DNA from: Mycobacterium decipiens
GTDB taxonomy: Bacteria; Actinomycetota; Actinomycetes; Mycobacteriales; Mycobacteriaceae
DNA: 64,000 nt
Assembly (NCBI RefSeq): GCF_963853665.1
Contig: NZ_OY970459.1
Location: forward strand, 1,178,001-1,242,000
Reading direction: 5' to 3'
Within the stretch, counting starts at the first letter, position 1, and each line of letters opens with the position of its first letter. A program made the position numbers and the translations under genes. Below, one piece after another: positions 15,418 to 20,307 of the stretch. The notes beneath the pieces are model-generated. The model saw only the letters and a list, made by a program, of their open reading frames with translations, made no database searches and was not told the DNA's origin.

Positions 15418-15427
15418 GCAACGCCCC

Positions 15428-15452
15428 GTTTACCTCTGCTCAGAGGGGGTAT
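15428..15452 (+). promoter_or_regulatory. SigF-type promoter upstream of Rv3289c-usfY
   Basis: GTTT (15428-15431), a 15-bp spacer and GGGTAT (15447-15452) match the mycobacterial SigF consensus (GGTTT then GGGTAT/A). Transcription would start near 15459, about 32 nt before the Rv3289c start. This fits an operon controlled by the sigma factor encoded downstream. Confidence 0.65.
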
Positions 15453-15490: not shown

Positions 15491-15859
15491 ATGCACGAAG
15501 TCCGTGGGCCGTCACGCGGTGATCGCTTGGGGCAGCAGGACGGCGAGGTCCATGCCGCGACCCGGTTCGCCGTGGCGGCCGCGGGTGCCGGGGTCGGCTT
15601 TCTCGTCATCGCCGCGTTGTGGGTGAGCACATGCAGCGGCGTTGACACAGCGGCCTGCGGCCCGCCTCAGCGGACCCTGCTGGCGTTAGGGAGCCCGCTG
15701 ATCCTGTTCGCCACCGGGCTGTGGGCGTTTCTGCGCACTTACCGGGTGTGGCGCGAGGAAGGTAGTTGGTGGGGATGGCACGGTGCCGGCTGGTTCTTGT
15801 TGACGCTGATGGTGCTGACGCTCTTCATGGGCGTACCCGCGATCGCCGCCTGGTCATGA
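15491..15859 (+). CDS. Small membrane protein of the sigF operon (Rv3289c-like)
   Basis: Function unknown. The 122-aa product has about three hydrophobic segments: residues 27-45 (FAVAAAGAGVGFLVIAALWV), about 63-80 (TLLALGSPLILFATGLWAF) and 98-118. The N-terminus is charged and probably cytosolic. There are two cysteines in the first loop (TCSGVDTAACG). It is the first gene after a SigF-type promoter and precedes usfY, rsbW and sigF, suggesting an envelope role in the SigF stress response. No catalytic motif is visible. Confidence 0.75.
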   Translation: MHEVRGPSRGDRLGQQDGEVHAATRFAVAAAGAGVGFLVIAALWVSTCSGVDTAACGPPQRTLLALGSPLILFATGLWAFLRTYRVWREEGSWWGWHGAGWFLLTLMVLTLFMGVPAIAAWS

Positions 15860-15878
15860 CGCCGTGACGGATTTTTTG
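15853..15878 (+). terminator. Weak hairpin plus T-run after Rv3289c
   Basis: A GTCA-N8-TGAC stem overlapping the Rv3289c stop is followed within 4 bp by ATTTTTT (15871-15877). The stem is only 4 bp, so it may act as partial attenuation between Rv3289c and usfY or be chance. Confidence 0.25.
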
Positions 15879-15976
15879 GGAGCTATCCCTGCACAACCTG
15901 TTCGACGAGTTCTACCGTTGATGGTAATGCCTGGTAATGGGCAGATAGTGGCGGAATAGAACGAAAGGAGGATGCC

Positions 15977-16288
15977 ATGGGGGACACCTATCGTGACCCG
16001 GTCGACCACCTGCGGACGACACGGCCACTTGCCGGCGAGTCGCTGATCGACGTGCTGCACTGGCCTGGGTACCTCTTGATCGTTGCCGGTGTGATCGGCG
16101 GCGTCGGATCTCTTGCGGCGTTCGGTACCGGACATCACGTCGAGGGCATGACTTCTGGCGTGGTGGCGATTTCCCTTGCGGTGGTTGGGTTGGCGTGGCT
16201 GGCGTTCGAGCATCGGCGGATACGCAGAATCGCCAATCGTTGGTACGCCGAACATCCCGAAGTCAGGCCGCAGCGGCTGGCCAGCTAG
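15977..16288 (+). CDS. usfY: UsfY, SigF-operon membrane protein
   Basis: Protein of unknown function encoded upstream of rsbW-sigF in mycobacteria. The 103 residues carry two hydrophobic helices (about 29-48 and 56-76), with a basic C-terminal tail from a segment FEHRRIRRIANRW. A very good ribosome site (GAAAGGAGG) precedes the ATG, so the start is firm. I remember a longer H37Rv annotation (137 aa); the extra residues are probably an annotation difference. Cotranscription with Rv3289c from a SigF promoter is likely. Confidence 0.82.
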   Translation: MGDTYRDPVDHLRTTRPLAGESLIDVLHWPGYLLIVAGVIGGVGSLAAFGTGHHVEGMTSGVVAISLAVVGLAWLAFEHRRIRRIANRWYAEHPEVRPQRLAS

Positions 16289-16348
16289 TCCCGTTACCGC
16301 AGGTCGCCCGCGGCGCCCAAAAATCTCGCGAAAAGCCCCACGTCGCGG

Positions 16349-16374
16349 GGTTATTGGTAGCTCGGAACGGGTAT
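16349..16374 (+). promoter_or_regulatory. SigF-type autoregulatory promoter for rsbW-sigF
   Basis: GGTTA (16349-16353), spacer, then GGGTAT (16369-16374), with the same 15-bp gap between the GTTN box and GGGTAT as the upstream SigF-type site. Transcription would start near 16381, giving a leader of about 295 nt before rsbW. The leader runs antisense to the small ORF at 16420-16569. M. tuberculosis sigF is known to be transcribed from a SigF-dependent promoter upstream of rsbW. Confidence 0.55.
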
Positions 16375-16419
16375 TACGTCTACACCATGACGAATGCCGG
16401 CCAAGTTGCGTTAGCGTGG

Positions 16420-16569
16420 TTACCCCATCATCGGGGAAAGAATCACGAAGGCGCCGACATAGATCCCTACTGCGACCACGATCAACGCGCCCAAGGTTAT
16501 CCCGGCGATCACCGCGATGCGCTTGAGTCGACGCGTCCGGAGCGGGTCGGTCACGGCTGTCTTGTCCAT
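16420..16569 (-). CDS. Putative 49-aa single-pass membrane microprotein, antisense in the sigF locus
   Basis: A clean ORF of 49 codons lies on the minus strand in the otherwise empty 388-bp gap between usfY and rsbW. It starts ATG at 16569 (MDKTAVTDPLRTRRLKR) and ends TAA at 16420. After a basic, cytosolic-looking N-terminus, one long hydrophobic helix covers residues 18-44 (IAVIAGITLGALIVV then AVGIYVGAFVIL), ending SPMMG. A SigF-like promoter on the same strand ends 10 bp before the ATG, so the mRNA would have a very short leader and no Shine-Dalgarno. No family is recognised. Evidence is coding-like amphipathic design plus promoter; conservation is untested. Confidence 0.55.
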   Translation of the reverse strand: MDKTAVTDPLRTRRLKRIAVIAGITLGALIVVAVGIYVGAFVILSPMMG

Positions 16570-16579
16570 GTCCGGTGGC

Positions 16580-16605
16580 ATACCCGGTGTCGATCATGAC
16601 CAACC
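16580..16605 (-). promoter_or_regulatory. SigF-like promoter for the 49-aa minus-strand ORF
   Basis: Read on the minus strand, GGTT (16605-16602), 16 bp, then GGGTAT (16585-16580). Counted from GTTG the gap to GGGTAT is 15 bp, the same as at the two plus-strand SigF-type sites in this locus. The predicted start point is about 16573, 4 nt from the ATG. Confidence 0.45.
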
Positions 16606-16676
16606 GGCTTGAAGGCGAGACCCGGGGCGAGACTCAGGGCGAGGGTAGTGTCGACCGAAGATTGCCGGGAGGCCAC

Positions 16677-17114
16677 ATGACCGATGCGGATCTGCGCACC
16701 AACAGACGCCAACGAGGTGCCCGCGCCGTTGAGCTGAATGTTGCTGCACGCCTGGAGAACCTGGCGCTGCTGCGCACCCTGGTTGGTGCCATCGGTACTT
16801 TCGAGGACTTGGATTTCGACGCGGTGGCAGACCTTAGGCTGGCGGTTGACGAGGTGTGCACCCGGTTGATCCGCTCGGCCTCGCCGAACGCCACCCTCAG
16901 CCTGGTGGTCGATCCGCGAGACGACGAACTTGTGGTCGAGGCTTCTGCTGCCTGCGATACCCACGACGTGGTGGCGCCGGGCAGCTTCAGCTGGCATGTG
17001 CTGACCTCGCTGGCTGATGACGTCCAGACGTTCCACGACGGTCGTCAGCCTGATGCAACCGGCAGTGTCTTCGGCATCACGTTGACCGCCCGACGGGCGG
17101 CCTCCACCCGGTGA
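16677..17114 (+). CDS. rsbW: Anti-sigma F factor RsbW/UsfX
   Basis: Serine-kinase-type (HATPase_c) anti-sigma factor that binds and holds SigF inactive. The start at 16677 follows GGGAGG and gives 145 aa, the length known for UsfX; the frame is open further upstream without a better site. The N-box region reads AVDEVCTRLIRSA: the Mg-binding Asn of canonical ExxxN kinases is Arg63, and no normal G-box is visible, so ATP-dependent kinase activity may be altered. The stop overlaps the sigF start (GTGA), ensuring matched synthesis of sigma and anti-sigma. Confidence 0.93.
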   Translation: MTDADLRTNRRQRGARAVELNVAARLENLALLRTLVGAIGTFEDLDFDAVADLRLAVDEVCTRLIRSASPNATLSLVVDPRDDELVVEASAACDTHDVVAPGSFSWHVLTSLADDVQTFHDGRQPDATGSVFGITLTARRAASTR

Positions 17115-17899
17115 CGGCGCGCGCTGCCGGCGGTTCTGCGTCGCCACATAGCGAATACGCCGACGTTCCGGAGATGTTTCGTGAGCTGGCCGGTTTCGCT
17201 GGCGACTCGCTGGAATTCCAGCGGCACCGGGACAAGATCGTGGAGCGGTGTTTGCCGCTGGCCGATCACATCGCGCGCCGTTTCGAGGGCCGCGGCGAAC
17301 CACGCGACGACCTGGTTCAGGTCGCGCGGGTCGGGTTGGTCAACGCCGTGGTTCGCTTCGATGTCGAGACCGGATCCGACTTCGTCTCCTTCGCGGTTCC
17401 GACCATTATGGGCGAGGTTCGACGACACTTCCGCGACAACAGCTGGTCGGTCAAGGTTCCCCGGCGTCTTAAGGAACTGCATCTGCGGCTGGGCGCCGCC
17501 ACCGCCGATCTGTCGCAACGGCTCGGGCGTGCGCCCACCGCATCGGAACTCGCGGTGGAACTCGGGATGGACCGCGCCGAGGTTGTCGAAGGTCTGGTGG
17601 CGGGCAGTTCCTACAACACCTTGTCCATCGACAGTGGTAGCGGCAGCGACGACGACGCCGCCCGGGCAATCGCAGACACCCTGGGTGACGTGGATGCGGG
17701 TCTCGACCAGATCGAGAATCGCGAGGCGCTTCGTCCATTGCTCCAGGCACTGCCCGAGCGGGAACGAATGGTGTTGGTGCTCAGGTTCTTCGAGTCGATG
17801 ACGCAAACGCAGATCGCCGAGCGGGTCGGCATCTCACAGATGCACGTATCCCGGCTGTTGGCGAAGTCGCTAGCGCAACTGCGGGATCAGCTTCAGTAG
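17111..17899 (+). CDS. sigF: Alternative RNA polymerase sigma factor SigF
   Basis: SigB/SigF-type group 3 sigma factor for stress and stationary-phase genes. Region 2 spans about residues 45-115 (DDLVQVARVGLVNAVVRFD, then FVSFAVPTIMGEVRRHFRD), region 3 about 125-185 and region 4 about 200-255 with helix-turn-helix TQTQIAERVGISQMHVSRLL. It starts at GTG 17111 overlapping rsbW, and has 262 aa against 261 in M. tuberculosis; remembered sequence differs at many positions, supporting a different species. The last 30 bp overlap a convergent STAS gene. Confidence 0.96.
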   Translation: MTARAAGGSASPHSEYADVPEMFRELAGFAGDSLEFQRHRDKIVERCLPLADHIARRFEGRGEPRDDLVQVARVGLVNAVVRFDVETGSDFVSFAVPTIMGEVRRHFRDNSWSVKVPRRLKELHLRLGAATADLSQRLGRAPTASELAVELGMDRAEVVEGLVAGSSYNTLSIDSGSGSDDDAARAIADTLGDVDAGLDQIENREALRPLLQALPERERMVLVLRFFESMTQTQIAERVGISQMHVSRLLAKSLAQLRDQLQ

Positions 17900-18265
17900 C
17901 CGCGGCTGTCTTTGTCCGGCCCCGTTTTCCGGTTCCGCTGTCGGCAGCGCGCCGTCGGGGTCGCAGATCCGCAATAGCCGGCACACTGCCTGGCTAGGTA
18001 CCATTCCCCAGTGCACGTCTGCGGCCGAGCACATGACGTTGATCCGGTGGAGTGCCGAAAAGCCGGCAGTACCAATGAAATCCACGCCACGCAGATCCAG
18101 CACCAGCCAGCTGCAATTCCGGGCGCAGCGCTGGACGTAGTTGGCGAGCTGATCGGCGTTGGTGGCGTCGAGCTCACCGGATACGCTGACCAAAGCGACT
18201 GAGGGTCCCCAACGGGCGGTGAACTCAGCGGTGTGGCTCTTTTGCCAAGATTGGGTCACAGGCAT
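17870..18265 (-). CDS. STAS-domain anti-anti-sigma factor-like protein
   Basis: STAS-domain protein of the SpoIIAA/RsbV type, expected to bind an anti-sigma factor and release its sigma factor. The fold is seen from VALVSVSGELDATNADQLANY near 25 through LVLDLRGVDFIGTAGFSAL near 55-73. At the phosphoacceptor position the usual D-S-S/T-G is G-T-A-G, so only a Thr is available. Start 18265 (MPVTQSW) has GGAG 6 bp upstream; an ATG at 18277 is possible. The 3' end overlaps sigF by 30 bp in convergent orientation, so it may act on RsbW. I do not recall this gene here in M. tuberculosis. Confidence 0.85.
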   Translation of the reverse strand: MPVTQSWQKSHTAEFTARWGPSVALVSVSGELDATNADQLANYVQRCARNCSWLVLDLRGVDFIGTAGFSALHRINVMCSAADVHWGMVPSQAVCRLLRICDPDGALPTAEPENGAGQRQPRLLKLIPQLR

Positions 18266-18476
18266 TGTTGGCTCCATCAGTTGACGAGCATTCGTTGCTG
18301 TGGATTACGTCAGGCGCGCGGAAAAGCCTTTCGTGGCAGCGAATTCGCCAACGCAATCCCGGGCGGCTGTGAACTCAACCTTCCTCAAACCCTACTCGCG
18401 CTGTGCGAGGTCGACAAACGTTCTCCAATCTAATTCACAGAATCACTGGTCAGATGGGAGCAGCCGTTGCCTGGTT

Positions 18477-18503
18477 AGCCGGCAGCGTTCTGATTGCCGG
18501 GCT
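18477..18503 (-). terminator. Hairpin after accA3
   Basis: An inverted repeat AGCCGGCA / TGCCGG(G)CT with a 10-nt loop lies at the accA3 stop codon. There is no T-run, which is usual for mycobacterial terminators. It may end the long carboxylase transcript before the convergent STAS gene. Confidence 0.4.
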
Positions 18504-20307
18504 ACTTGATCTCGGCGAGCACCGTACCTTGGGTGATGGCGGCACCGGCCTCGACCGCCAGTCCGGTGATGGTGCCGTCCTTGTGCGCGGTGACTGGGTT
18601 CTCCATCTTCATCGCCTCAAGGACCACAACGAGGTCGCCGGTTGCGACCTCCTGTCCTTCTTCGACCGCTACCTTCACCACGGTGCCCTGCATAGGTGCG
18701 GTCACCGCGTCTCCCGAGGCGGCCGCGCCGGCGTGCGCACCCCGCTTACGTGGCTTGGGCTTGCGCCGAACGACACCGCTCGTACCGACCGGGTCGCAAC
18801 CGCCGCCGTTGGACAGCGCGAGATCGGCGGGCAGCGAAACCTCGATCCGCCGGCCATCGATTTCGACGACCACCTTCTGCCGCGGCCGGGCGTCCTCGTC
18901 GTCGAGCGGTTCGCCGCCGGTGAAGGGTTCGACGGTGTTGTTCCACTCGGTCTCAATCCAGCGGGTGTGTACCGCGAAGCCGCTGTCGTCACCGATGAAT
19001 GCCGGGTCGGACACCACCGCGCGGTGGAACGGGATGACGGTGGCCAGGCCTTCGACCTTGAACTCGTCCAGCGCGCGTCGGGCCCGCGCCAGCGCCTCGG
19101 TGCGGTCGGCGCCGTACACGATCAGCTTGGCCAGCATCGAGTCGAATTGGCCACCGATCACCGAGCCGGTTTCGACACCGGAATCCACCCGCACACCCGG
19201 GCCGCTGGGCGGATGGAACATCGTCACCGGTCCGGGGGCGGGCAGGAAGTTGCGTCCCGCGTCCTCGCCGTTGATCCGGAATTCGATGGCATGCCCGCGG
19301 GGGGTGGGGTCCTCGGCCAGGTCCAACTTCTCGCCGTTGGCGATCTTGAACTGCTGCAGGACCAAGTCGATGCCCGCGGTTTCCTCGGTGACCGGGTGTT
19401 CGACCTGGAGGCGGGTATTGACCTCCAGGAAGGAAATCAGTCCGTCCTGGCCGACCAGGTACTCGACGGTTCCGGCGCCGTAGTAGTGGGCCTCTTTGCA
19501 GATCCGTTTCGCCGATTCGTGGATCTCCTTGCGCTGCGCGTCCGTCAGGAACGGGGCCGGCGCCTCTTCGACGAGCTTTTGGAAGCGGCGCTGCAATGAA
19601 CAGTCCCGGGTGCCGGCGACGATGACGTTGCCGTGCTGATCGGCGATCACCTGCGCTTCGACATGGCGGGGTTTGTCCAGGTAGCGCTCCACGAAGCACT
19701 CGCCGCGGCCGAACGCGGCGACGGCCTCACGGGTGGCCGACTCGAACAGTTCGGGGATCTCGTCGATGCTGCGGGCCACCTTCATGCCCTTGCCGCCGCC
19801 GCCGAAGGCCGCCTTGATCGCGATCGGCACGCCGTACTCGTGGGCGAAGGCCACCACCTCGTCGGCGTTCTTGACCGGGTCGGGGGTCCCGGGCACCAGT
19901 GGAGCCTGGGCGCGGGCCGCGATGTGACGGGCGGTGACCTTGTCGCCGAGGTCACGGATCGACTGCGGGCTGGGGCCGATCCAGATCAGGCCGGCATCGA
20001 TCACGGCCTGGGCGAACTCGGCGTTCTCCGCCAGGAAGCCGTAGCCGGGGTGGATGGCGTTGGCGCCGGACTTGGCGGCCGCGTCGAGGATCTTGGCGAT
20101 GTCGAGGTAGGACTCCGCCGAGGTCTGACCGCCCAGGGCGAACGCCTCGTCGGCCAGACGAACGTGCGGAGCCTCGGCGTCGGGTTCGGCGTAGACGGCC
20201 ACGCTGGGCAGGCCGGCATCGCGGGCCCCCCGGATCACCCGGACTGCGATCTCGCCGCGATTGGCGACGAGAACCTTGGAGATCCTCGAGCTGGCGTGAC
20301 TAGCCAC
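18502..20307 (-). CDS. accA3: Acyl-CoA carboxylase alpha subunit AccA3 (biotin carboxylase + BCCP)
   Basis: Shared alpha subunit of mycobacterial acyl-CoA carboxylases, making malonyl-CoA and methylmalonyl-CoA for fatty and mycolic acid synthesis. Biotin carboxylase ATP-grasp domain occupies about residues 8-455 ([39 protein letters not shown]). A linker follows, then a BCCP domain with biotinyl Lys567 in [12 protein letters not shown] start at 20307 follows AGGAGG. Length 601 aa matches M. tuberculosis (600). The accD5/accE5 partners and birA, which attaches the biotin, are encoded nearby. Confidence 0.97.

Follow-up and report, generated by a model that had tools for sequence, protein, structure and literature searches.

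A candidate gene opposite the rsbW-sigF leader

What occupies the gap between usfY and rsbW-sigF in the sigF locus of Mycobacterium decipiens: a gene of its own, or an open frame held in place by the signals around it? A minus-strand ORF sits in this gap in the window (the whole 64-kb stretch of DNA that was analysed). The initial annotation had described a 49-aa frame with GGTT-N16-GGGTAT ten bases 5′ of its ATG, and its coordinates and spacing are as claimed. The minus-strand frame is open from 16420 to 16581, giving 53 aa counted from the first ATG; because that ATG (16581) overlaps the -10 hexamer (GGGTATG), the second (16569, 49 aa) is the plausible start. The features of the locus are as follows.

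15977..16288, plus strand: usfY (NCBIfam NF041247)
16349..16374, plus strand: facing sense SigF-type promoter of rsbW-sigF, GGTT-N16-GGGTAT (motif scan; equivalent box in 89/89 RTG-started loci)
16420..16569, stop included, minus strand: putative membrane microprotein ORF, 49 aa, MDKTAVTDPLRTRRLKRIAVIAGITLGALIVVAVGIYVGAFVILSPMMG (ORF, homologues, codon constraint, AlphaFold2 helix 9-48)
16580..16585, minus strand: SigF-type -10 (GGGTAT), with the ATG 10 nt further on (motif scan, conserved spacing)
16602..16605, minus strand: SigF-type -35 (GGTT), 16 nt from the -10, lying over codons 3-4 of the opposite-strand RsbW extension
16596..16676, plus strand: probable RsbW N-terminal extension, MTNRLE...LPGGH, which reads in frame into the ATG at 16677
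16646..16651, plus strand: TANNNT-type -10 (TAGTGT) just 5′ of the short RsbW start, a candidate SigF-independent promoter (alignments)
16677..17114, plus strand: rsbW (anti-SigF), short form (HATPase_c_2, PF13581)
17111..17899, plus strand: sigF (NCBIfam NF005514, RNA polymerase sigma factor SigF)

The sense transcription start of rsbW-sigF is estimated at about 16382. An Rfam scan of 15800-17200 returned zero matches at E<=1.

Codon constraint and gene loss

We collected 266 loci, of which 244 had a usable rsbW and 192 were non-redundant; fractions of these 192 are not prevalences, because 80 of the 120 sampled stretches were chosen around ORF hits. In this sample, enriched for carriers, the frame is open from the box-coupled position to the conserved C-terminus in 107 of the 192 loci, 89 of them RTG-started (81 ATG, 8 GTG) and 18 without ATG/GTG; the remaining loci are broken or box-less (32) or have no detectable ORF (53). 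At least two of the 18 start-less loci (L098 and L120) look misassigned, the GTG there following a weaker GGGAGT.

Across 47 sequences of 49 aa, the ORF frame has a median dN/dS of 0.38; the two shifted frames have 1.05 and 1.61, and the three opposite-strand frames 0.86, 0.52, and 1.81. This comparison across relatives, which the initial annotation had suggested as a check, leaves the ORF frame the lowest of the six, with the opposite-strand phase at 0.52 next and itself lowish. Variability at the three codon positions is 0.199, 0.122, and 0.290 in the same sequences. Within groups, named here by the species names of their member records, uncorrected pN/pS is 0.30 in the intact gastri/innocens-type loci (6 sequences), 0.40 in the intact group around L171-L184 (8 sequences), 0.49 in distant loci (40 sequences, last 36 codons), 0.69 in the intact scrofulaceum-type loci (8 of 12 listed), and 0.75 in the arosiense-type loci (7 sequences including one broken copy; bootstrap range 0.51-1.09). 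Codon constraint is weak or gone where the microprotein start or frame is broken: pN/pS is 0.96 in colombiense-type loci with a stop or lost start (11 sequences) and 0.87 in asiaticum/gordonae-type loci with a lost start (6 of 7 listed).

Stops or frameshifts in close relatives had been named at the outset as grounds for abandoning the ORF. They do occur in some groups, but constraint has been lost there as well, so that the broken copies fit gene loss and do not fit a spurious ORF. On a tree of rsbW there are 23 changes between intact and non-intact states, 11 of them forced by starred branches. Judged by these patterns, the microprotein looks like a real conserved protein-coding gene that is dispensable and has been lost in some lineages. 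Six colombiense-type loci (L068, L070, L079, L083, L086, and L095) share a common stop at the same ORF position and retain a perfect box.

Homologues and genomic context

A protein search with one query gave 64 homologues at E<=10, and for 56 of these E was below 1e-6; a 25-row profile found at least 740 proteins at E<=1 when the best 7991 candidates by shared words were scored. The frame is annotated in places, without a name: homologues called 'hypothetical protein' include those of M. marseillense, M. simiae, M. basiliense, and M. heidelbergense. When the profile was run against 396 genomes of the genus, 153 matched at E<=1e-3 and 115 at E<=1e-10, some copies holding stops; the 38 of the 153 that are weaker than E 1e-10 include helices in long frames and were left uncounted. 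A sample of 249 genomes of the order, with the genus among them, yielded no convincing relative outside the genus; the matches beyond it (E>=9e-6) are helices in mostly long frames, and we did not count them as relatives. M. tuberculosis does not appear among the 80 loci listed with names, nor among the names of the protein matches listed. The initial annotation knew of no description of this ORF, and our literature search, which did not extend to supplementary start-site and Ribo-seq tables, likewise found none.

The microprotein gene keeps company with rsbW, which is present in 116 of 116 loci retrieved around ORF hits (a redundant set that excludes the weaker matches L011-L030). UsfY went unrecognised in 44 of the 89 intact loci, many of the sampled stretches being short. 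We call loci 'close' when their RsbW is at least 78% identical to that of the window and 'distant' when it is less; the ORF extends beyond close relatives, to loci where this identity is as low as 61%. Many of the distant genomes are presumably fast growers. Distant loci vary in sequence and in N-terminal length, and most retain GTGT or GTTA-N16-GGGTAA-N9-ATG.

A predicted single-pass membrane protein

The RTG-started ORFs encode 39-73 aa (median 49). Of 89 loci examined, 88 have a run of at least 18 residues free of R, K, D, E, H, N, and Q, and in 86 of these 88 the run spans 29-33 residues. In 81 of the 88 the N-terminus carries a net positive charge; the eight residues preceding the helix contain 3.9 R/K on average, and an AlphaFold2 model built from the 25-row alignment consists of one helix (residues 9-48, mean pLDDT 84). 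The run and charge counts and the model thus agree with the basic N-terminus and single membrane helix that had been read from the window, and the protein is predicted to be a small single-pass membrane protein with a positive-inside flank. Pfam and NCBIfam gave sub-cut-off matches alone (GDT1, E 0.0096; MyrrCad, E 0.0057; SdpB, E 0.0073; others weaker), a PDB sequence search gave nothing below E 0.72, and Foldseek gave zero matches. These searches thus lend no support to the GDT1-antiporter name carried by two homologues (P0022 and P0026).

Promoter and start-codon spacing

GGTT-N16-GGGTAT occurs without mismatch at two sites in the 64 kb, at 16349 on the plus strand (rsbW) and at 16580 on the minus strand (the microprotein ORF). 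With up to one mismatch there are 5 boxes, compared with 1.46 +/- 1.25 in 100 shuffles, 2 of which reached 5; a perfect box would be expected about 0.05 times by chance, a proportion scaled from the shuffle figure. The box at 16580-16605 conforms to the mycobacterial SigF promoter consensus of the GGWWT/GTTT-N14-19-GGGTA type, as given in the promoter descriptions of PMC7693655 and PMC4694148.

The spacing between box and start codon is itself conserved. In each of 139 ORF-hit loci we took the exact GGGTA nearest the helix, chosen blind to start codons. An exact GGGTA lies near the start in 107 loci and is absent in 32, and the box is missing from some loci whose frame is otherwise long and open, such as L004 and L006. 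In this blind count, the in-frame codon 9 nt past the hexamer (GGGTA plus one base) is ATG or GTG in 44 of 45 loci and that 10 nt past it in 42 of 59, which makes 86 of 107 loci overall, and none has ATG or GTG at 6, 7, 12, 13, 15, or 16 nt. These figures replace an older count (60 loci at 10 nt and 47 at 9 nt, n=107), in which a 6-12 nt scan favoured ATG/GTG and assigned ties to 10. The perfect box and the blind start spacing support the proposal that the ORF has a SigF-type promoter of its own.

In mycobacteria, leaderless mRNAs begin with no codon other than ATG or GTG, and such a codon at the mRNA 5′ end suffices for translation, according to a part of PMC4633059, and leaders of 0-3 nt are described as functional in M. 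marinum (a passage of PMC8022548). Table 1 of PMC4694148 places the box 8-11 nt from the start in several M. smegmatis SigF genes. The spacing at the microprotein gene fits this leaderless layout, and a leaderless start may be inferred from it. MSMEG_1131, MSMEG_6515, and MSMEG_0670 in the same source resemble the microprotein gene in having a GTGT/GGTT-N16-GGGTA box 8-11 nt before the start codon. Those M. smegmatis genes are, in what that paper reports of them, annotated and reduced in expression in a sigF mutant, whereas here a putative microprotein gene lies antisense to the sigF-operon leader.

A probable N-terminal extension of RsbW shares the -35 region

The initial annotation had held that no neighbouring gene explains the ORF. 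The ORF body does lie outside the probable RsbW extension, but the -35 overlaps the start of that extension, a confound that had been missed. Of 192 loci, 100 have a motif like MTNRLE 5′ of rsbW; in 99 of these the motif is separated from the usual ATG by a stop-free multiple of three. Over codons 5-27 of 57 extensions of 81 nt, pN/pS is 0.68 in frame, compared with 1.02 and 0.96 out of frame; the in-frame value leaves out codons fixed by the search pattern and is 0.56 if they are kept. Among the 120 RsbW protein matches listed, 35 open with a start like MTNRLE and 51 are 144-146 aa long. These patterns suggest that RsbW is probably longer than the short form at its N-terminus. The short form comes with an SD-like GGGAGG of its own and with the TANNNT element, a type of SigF-independent promoter reported in M. 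smegmatis in a section of PMC7693655. With both the extension and these short-form signals present, RsbW may exist in two lengths, which would matter for cloning or annotating rsbW. By eye, a possible shorter in-frame upstream start of rsbW (MxN...WGNLA...PGGQ-M) can be made out in distant loci such as L009, L137, and L142.

Since the -35 and spacer are shared with RsbW coding sequence, their conservation in close genomes is weak evidence for an antisense promoter; the substitution of AAT for AAC in the extension, for example, changes the antisense GGTT to GATT. The extension does not reach the microprotein -10, and among 47 intact distant loci there are 41 that have the ORF and the box but lack the MTNR motif.

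Facing SigF-type promoters

A sense SigF-type box (GGTT, GTTT, or GTGT, a spacer of 15-18, and GGGTA) lies past the ORF in all 89 RTG-started loci, about 16-101 nt beyond the microprotein stop; it is perfect in 82 and has one mismatch in 7, compared with 0.3% perfect in shuffles. With SigF-type boxes facing each other in 89/89 loci, the microprotein and rsbW-sigF transcripts should overlap, by a predicted 134-253 nt (median 187) if starts are assumed 8 nt past each -10. The claim that the ORF is antisense to the leader of a SigF-type rsbW-sigF transcript is thereby borne out at the level of predicted transcripts.

A SigF-driven membrane protein as the likely product

We think it likely that the ORF encodes a protein and belongs to the SigF stress regulon, with a SigF-driven leaderless mRNA that would yield a single-pass membrane protein as the selected product. 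The points that we take from sequence are the codon constraint, the promoter-start spacing, the facing promoters, the rsbW neighbourhood, and the one predicted helix; dependence on SigF in the cell, the leaderless start, insertion into the membrane, a partner there, and an effect on rsbW-sigF are what we infer beyond them. Under stress that activates SigF, SigF-RNA polymerase would start on the ATG/GTG or no more than about 3 nt from it and produce a leaderless mRNA. Translation of this mRNA would give a small (39-73 aa) single-pass membrane protein with its basic N-terminus inside and its conserved end, Y-x3-F-x2-L-[SAG]-P-M-[ML]-[GQA], placed at the outer face. The protein itself, and not the RNA, would be the product under selection. 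During the stress response it would most likely contact a membrane partner in the inner membrane, acting as a SigF-induced membrane effector, with feedback on SigF signalling as one possible form of action.

As the microprotein mRNA is complementary to the predicted rsbW-sigF leader, the two SigF outputs would probably be coupled in cis. A full circuit in cis, in which facing promoters produce mutually limiting RNAs and the membrane protein gives a readout of the SigF response or damps it, seems to us rather unlikely; if true, it would be a stress-sigma counterpart, in actinobacteria, of an antisense-controlled membrane peptide module. Regulation of SigF in mycobacteria has been reported, in a portion of PMC8115616, to be partly unknown; this conserved microprotein gene, fixed in place next to the anti-sigma gene and with a SigF-type promoter that faces a second one, is a concrete candidate for a SigF regulatory step.

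Alternative explanations

The function could instead reside in the antisense transcript, a SigF-driven antisense RNA or head-on transcription limiting rsbW-sigF, with the ORF secondary. There is a precedent in AscarD, a SigF-dependent antisense RNA with a SigF-type promoter antisense to the transcript of a regulator, as at the microprotein locus (account in PMC8820732), and the predicted overlap with the sense leader covers the complete ORF in 89/89 loci. The box also often outlives the ORF. Of the close loci, 24 of the 42 with an intact ORF carry a perfect box, as do 15 of the 30 that are broken, 9 of the 17 without a start, and 5 of the 27 without the ORF; in a 14-locus asiaticum/gordonae-type dead group, pairwise differences amount to 2.4% in the -10 and 47% in the ORF (gaps counted). 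However, this retention has another explanation, because the box runs up to and into the beginning of the RsbW extension: the 10 nt that precede the extension show 0% differences in the same 14 loci, and in 12 colombiense-type loci the differences are 5.6% in the -10, 15.6% in the ORF, and 4.8% in those 10 nt. We therefore do not count the survival of the box in dead groups as proof that the antisense RNA has a function. A terminator-like hairpin on the antisense strand (16342-16327) was also discarded, being found in 8 of 89 loci against 3.7 expected and so not conserved. Codon constraint that is present in intact groups and absent in dead ones is a further argument against a purely RNA-level role. 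AscarD, as described in that source, acts on carD as an antisense RNA, whereas the microprotein locus has a protein frame under purifying selection, and we regard this explanation as unlikely.

We give little credence to a type I toxin-antitoxin-like pair, in which the mRNA of a hydrophobic membrane peptide would be silenced by the complementary rsbW-sigF leader. Such modules resemble this locus in combining a small hydrophobic peptide, here with a single helix and basic N-terminus, with a fully overlapping antisense transcript (predicted here), and repeated loss on the rsbW tree would suit them. Here, though, the antisense strand is a conserved operon leader, and the two promoters belong to one sigma type; both RNAs being predicted SigF products, the antitoxin would be induced together with the toxin. 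The fixed place beside rsbW is also unlike that of mobile toxin modules. A 2025 paper, in the part concerned with known type I systems, limits them to Proteobacteria, Firmicutes, and Tenericutes, and in the same part a cyanobacterial case is proposed (PMC12390103).

A role as a membrane tether for the stressosome protein RsbR, activating SigF in the manner of Prli42, is very improbable. The parallel is that Listeria Prli42, whose basic N-terminal tail binds RsbR in the account of PMC6614362, is a membrane-spanning mini-protein with a basic cytosolic N-terminus and a link to a SigB-type pathway; the microprotein is predicted to share these traits, has a basic tail and a position in the SigF locus, and occurs in a genome that encodes an RsbR-like protein. 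The presence of the microprotein, however, does not follow RsbR within the close group. In the 115 genomes that score best for RsbW, taken as the close group for this analysis, the ORF and RsbR occur together in 64, the ORF alone in 2, RsbR alone in 45, and neither in 4 (Fisher p=0.40). Outside this group the ORF is present in 49 genomes, and 38 of those lack an RsbR match at E<=1e-60. The strong association across the genus (75/40/58/223, p=6e-17) tracks the division into close and distant genomes. As co-occurrence fails within groups, anchoring RsbR is unlikely to be the general role of the microprotein. Stressosome-like genes in the window's genome lie at 4991822-4993538, where an RsbRD_N/STAS protein and a second STAS protein are encoded and a 137-aa ORF reads, from its sequence, like RsbT.

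An ORF that arose by chance and was preserved by the overlapping start of RsbW and by the promoters, which do constrain the neighbourhood, has a negligible probability given the frame-specific constraint on an ORF body outside the RsbW extension, the distant loci that retain both ORF and box in the absence of the MTNR motif, and the number of proteins found by the profile.

Neighbouring genes

Two further observations concern the flanks of the locus. A STAS-domain, anti-anti-sigma-like gene (17870-18277, minus strand; PF01740, E 5e-11) overlaps the end of sigF tail to tail, and the next ORF (18502-20307, minus strand) resembles an acyl-CoA carboxylase subunit gene. On the other side, a one-mismatch SigF-type box at 15427-15452 on the plus strand lies 38 nt 5′ of the ATG of a 122-aa ORF (15491-15859), a gene that, judged by this box, may also be SigF-driven.
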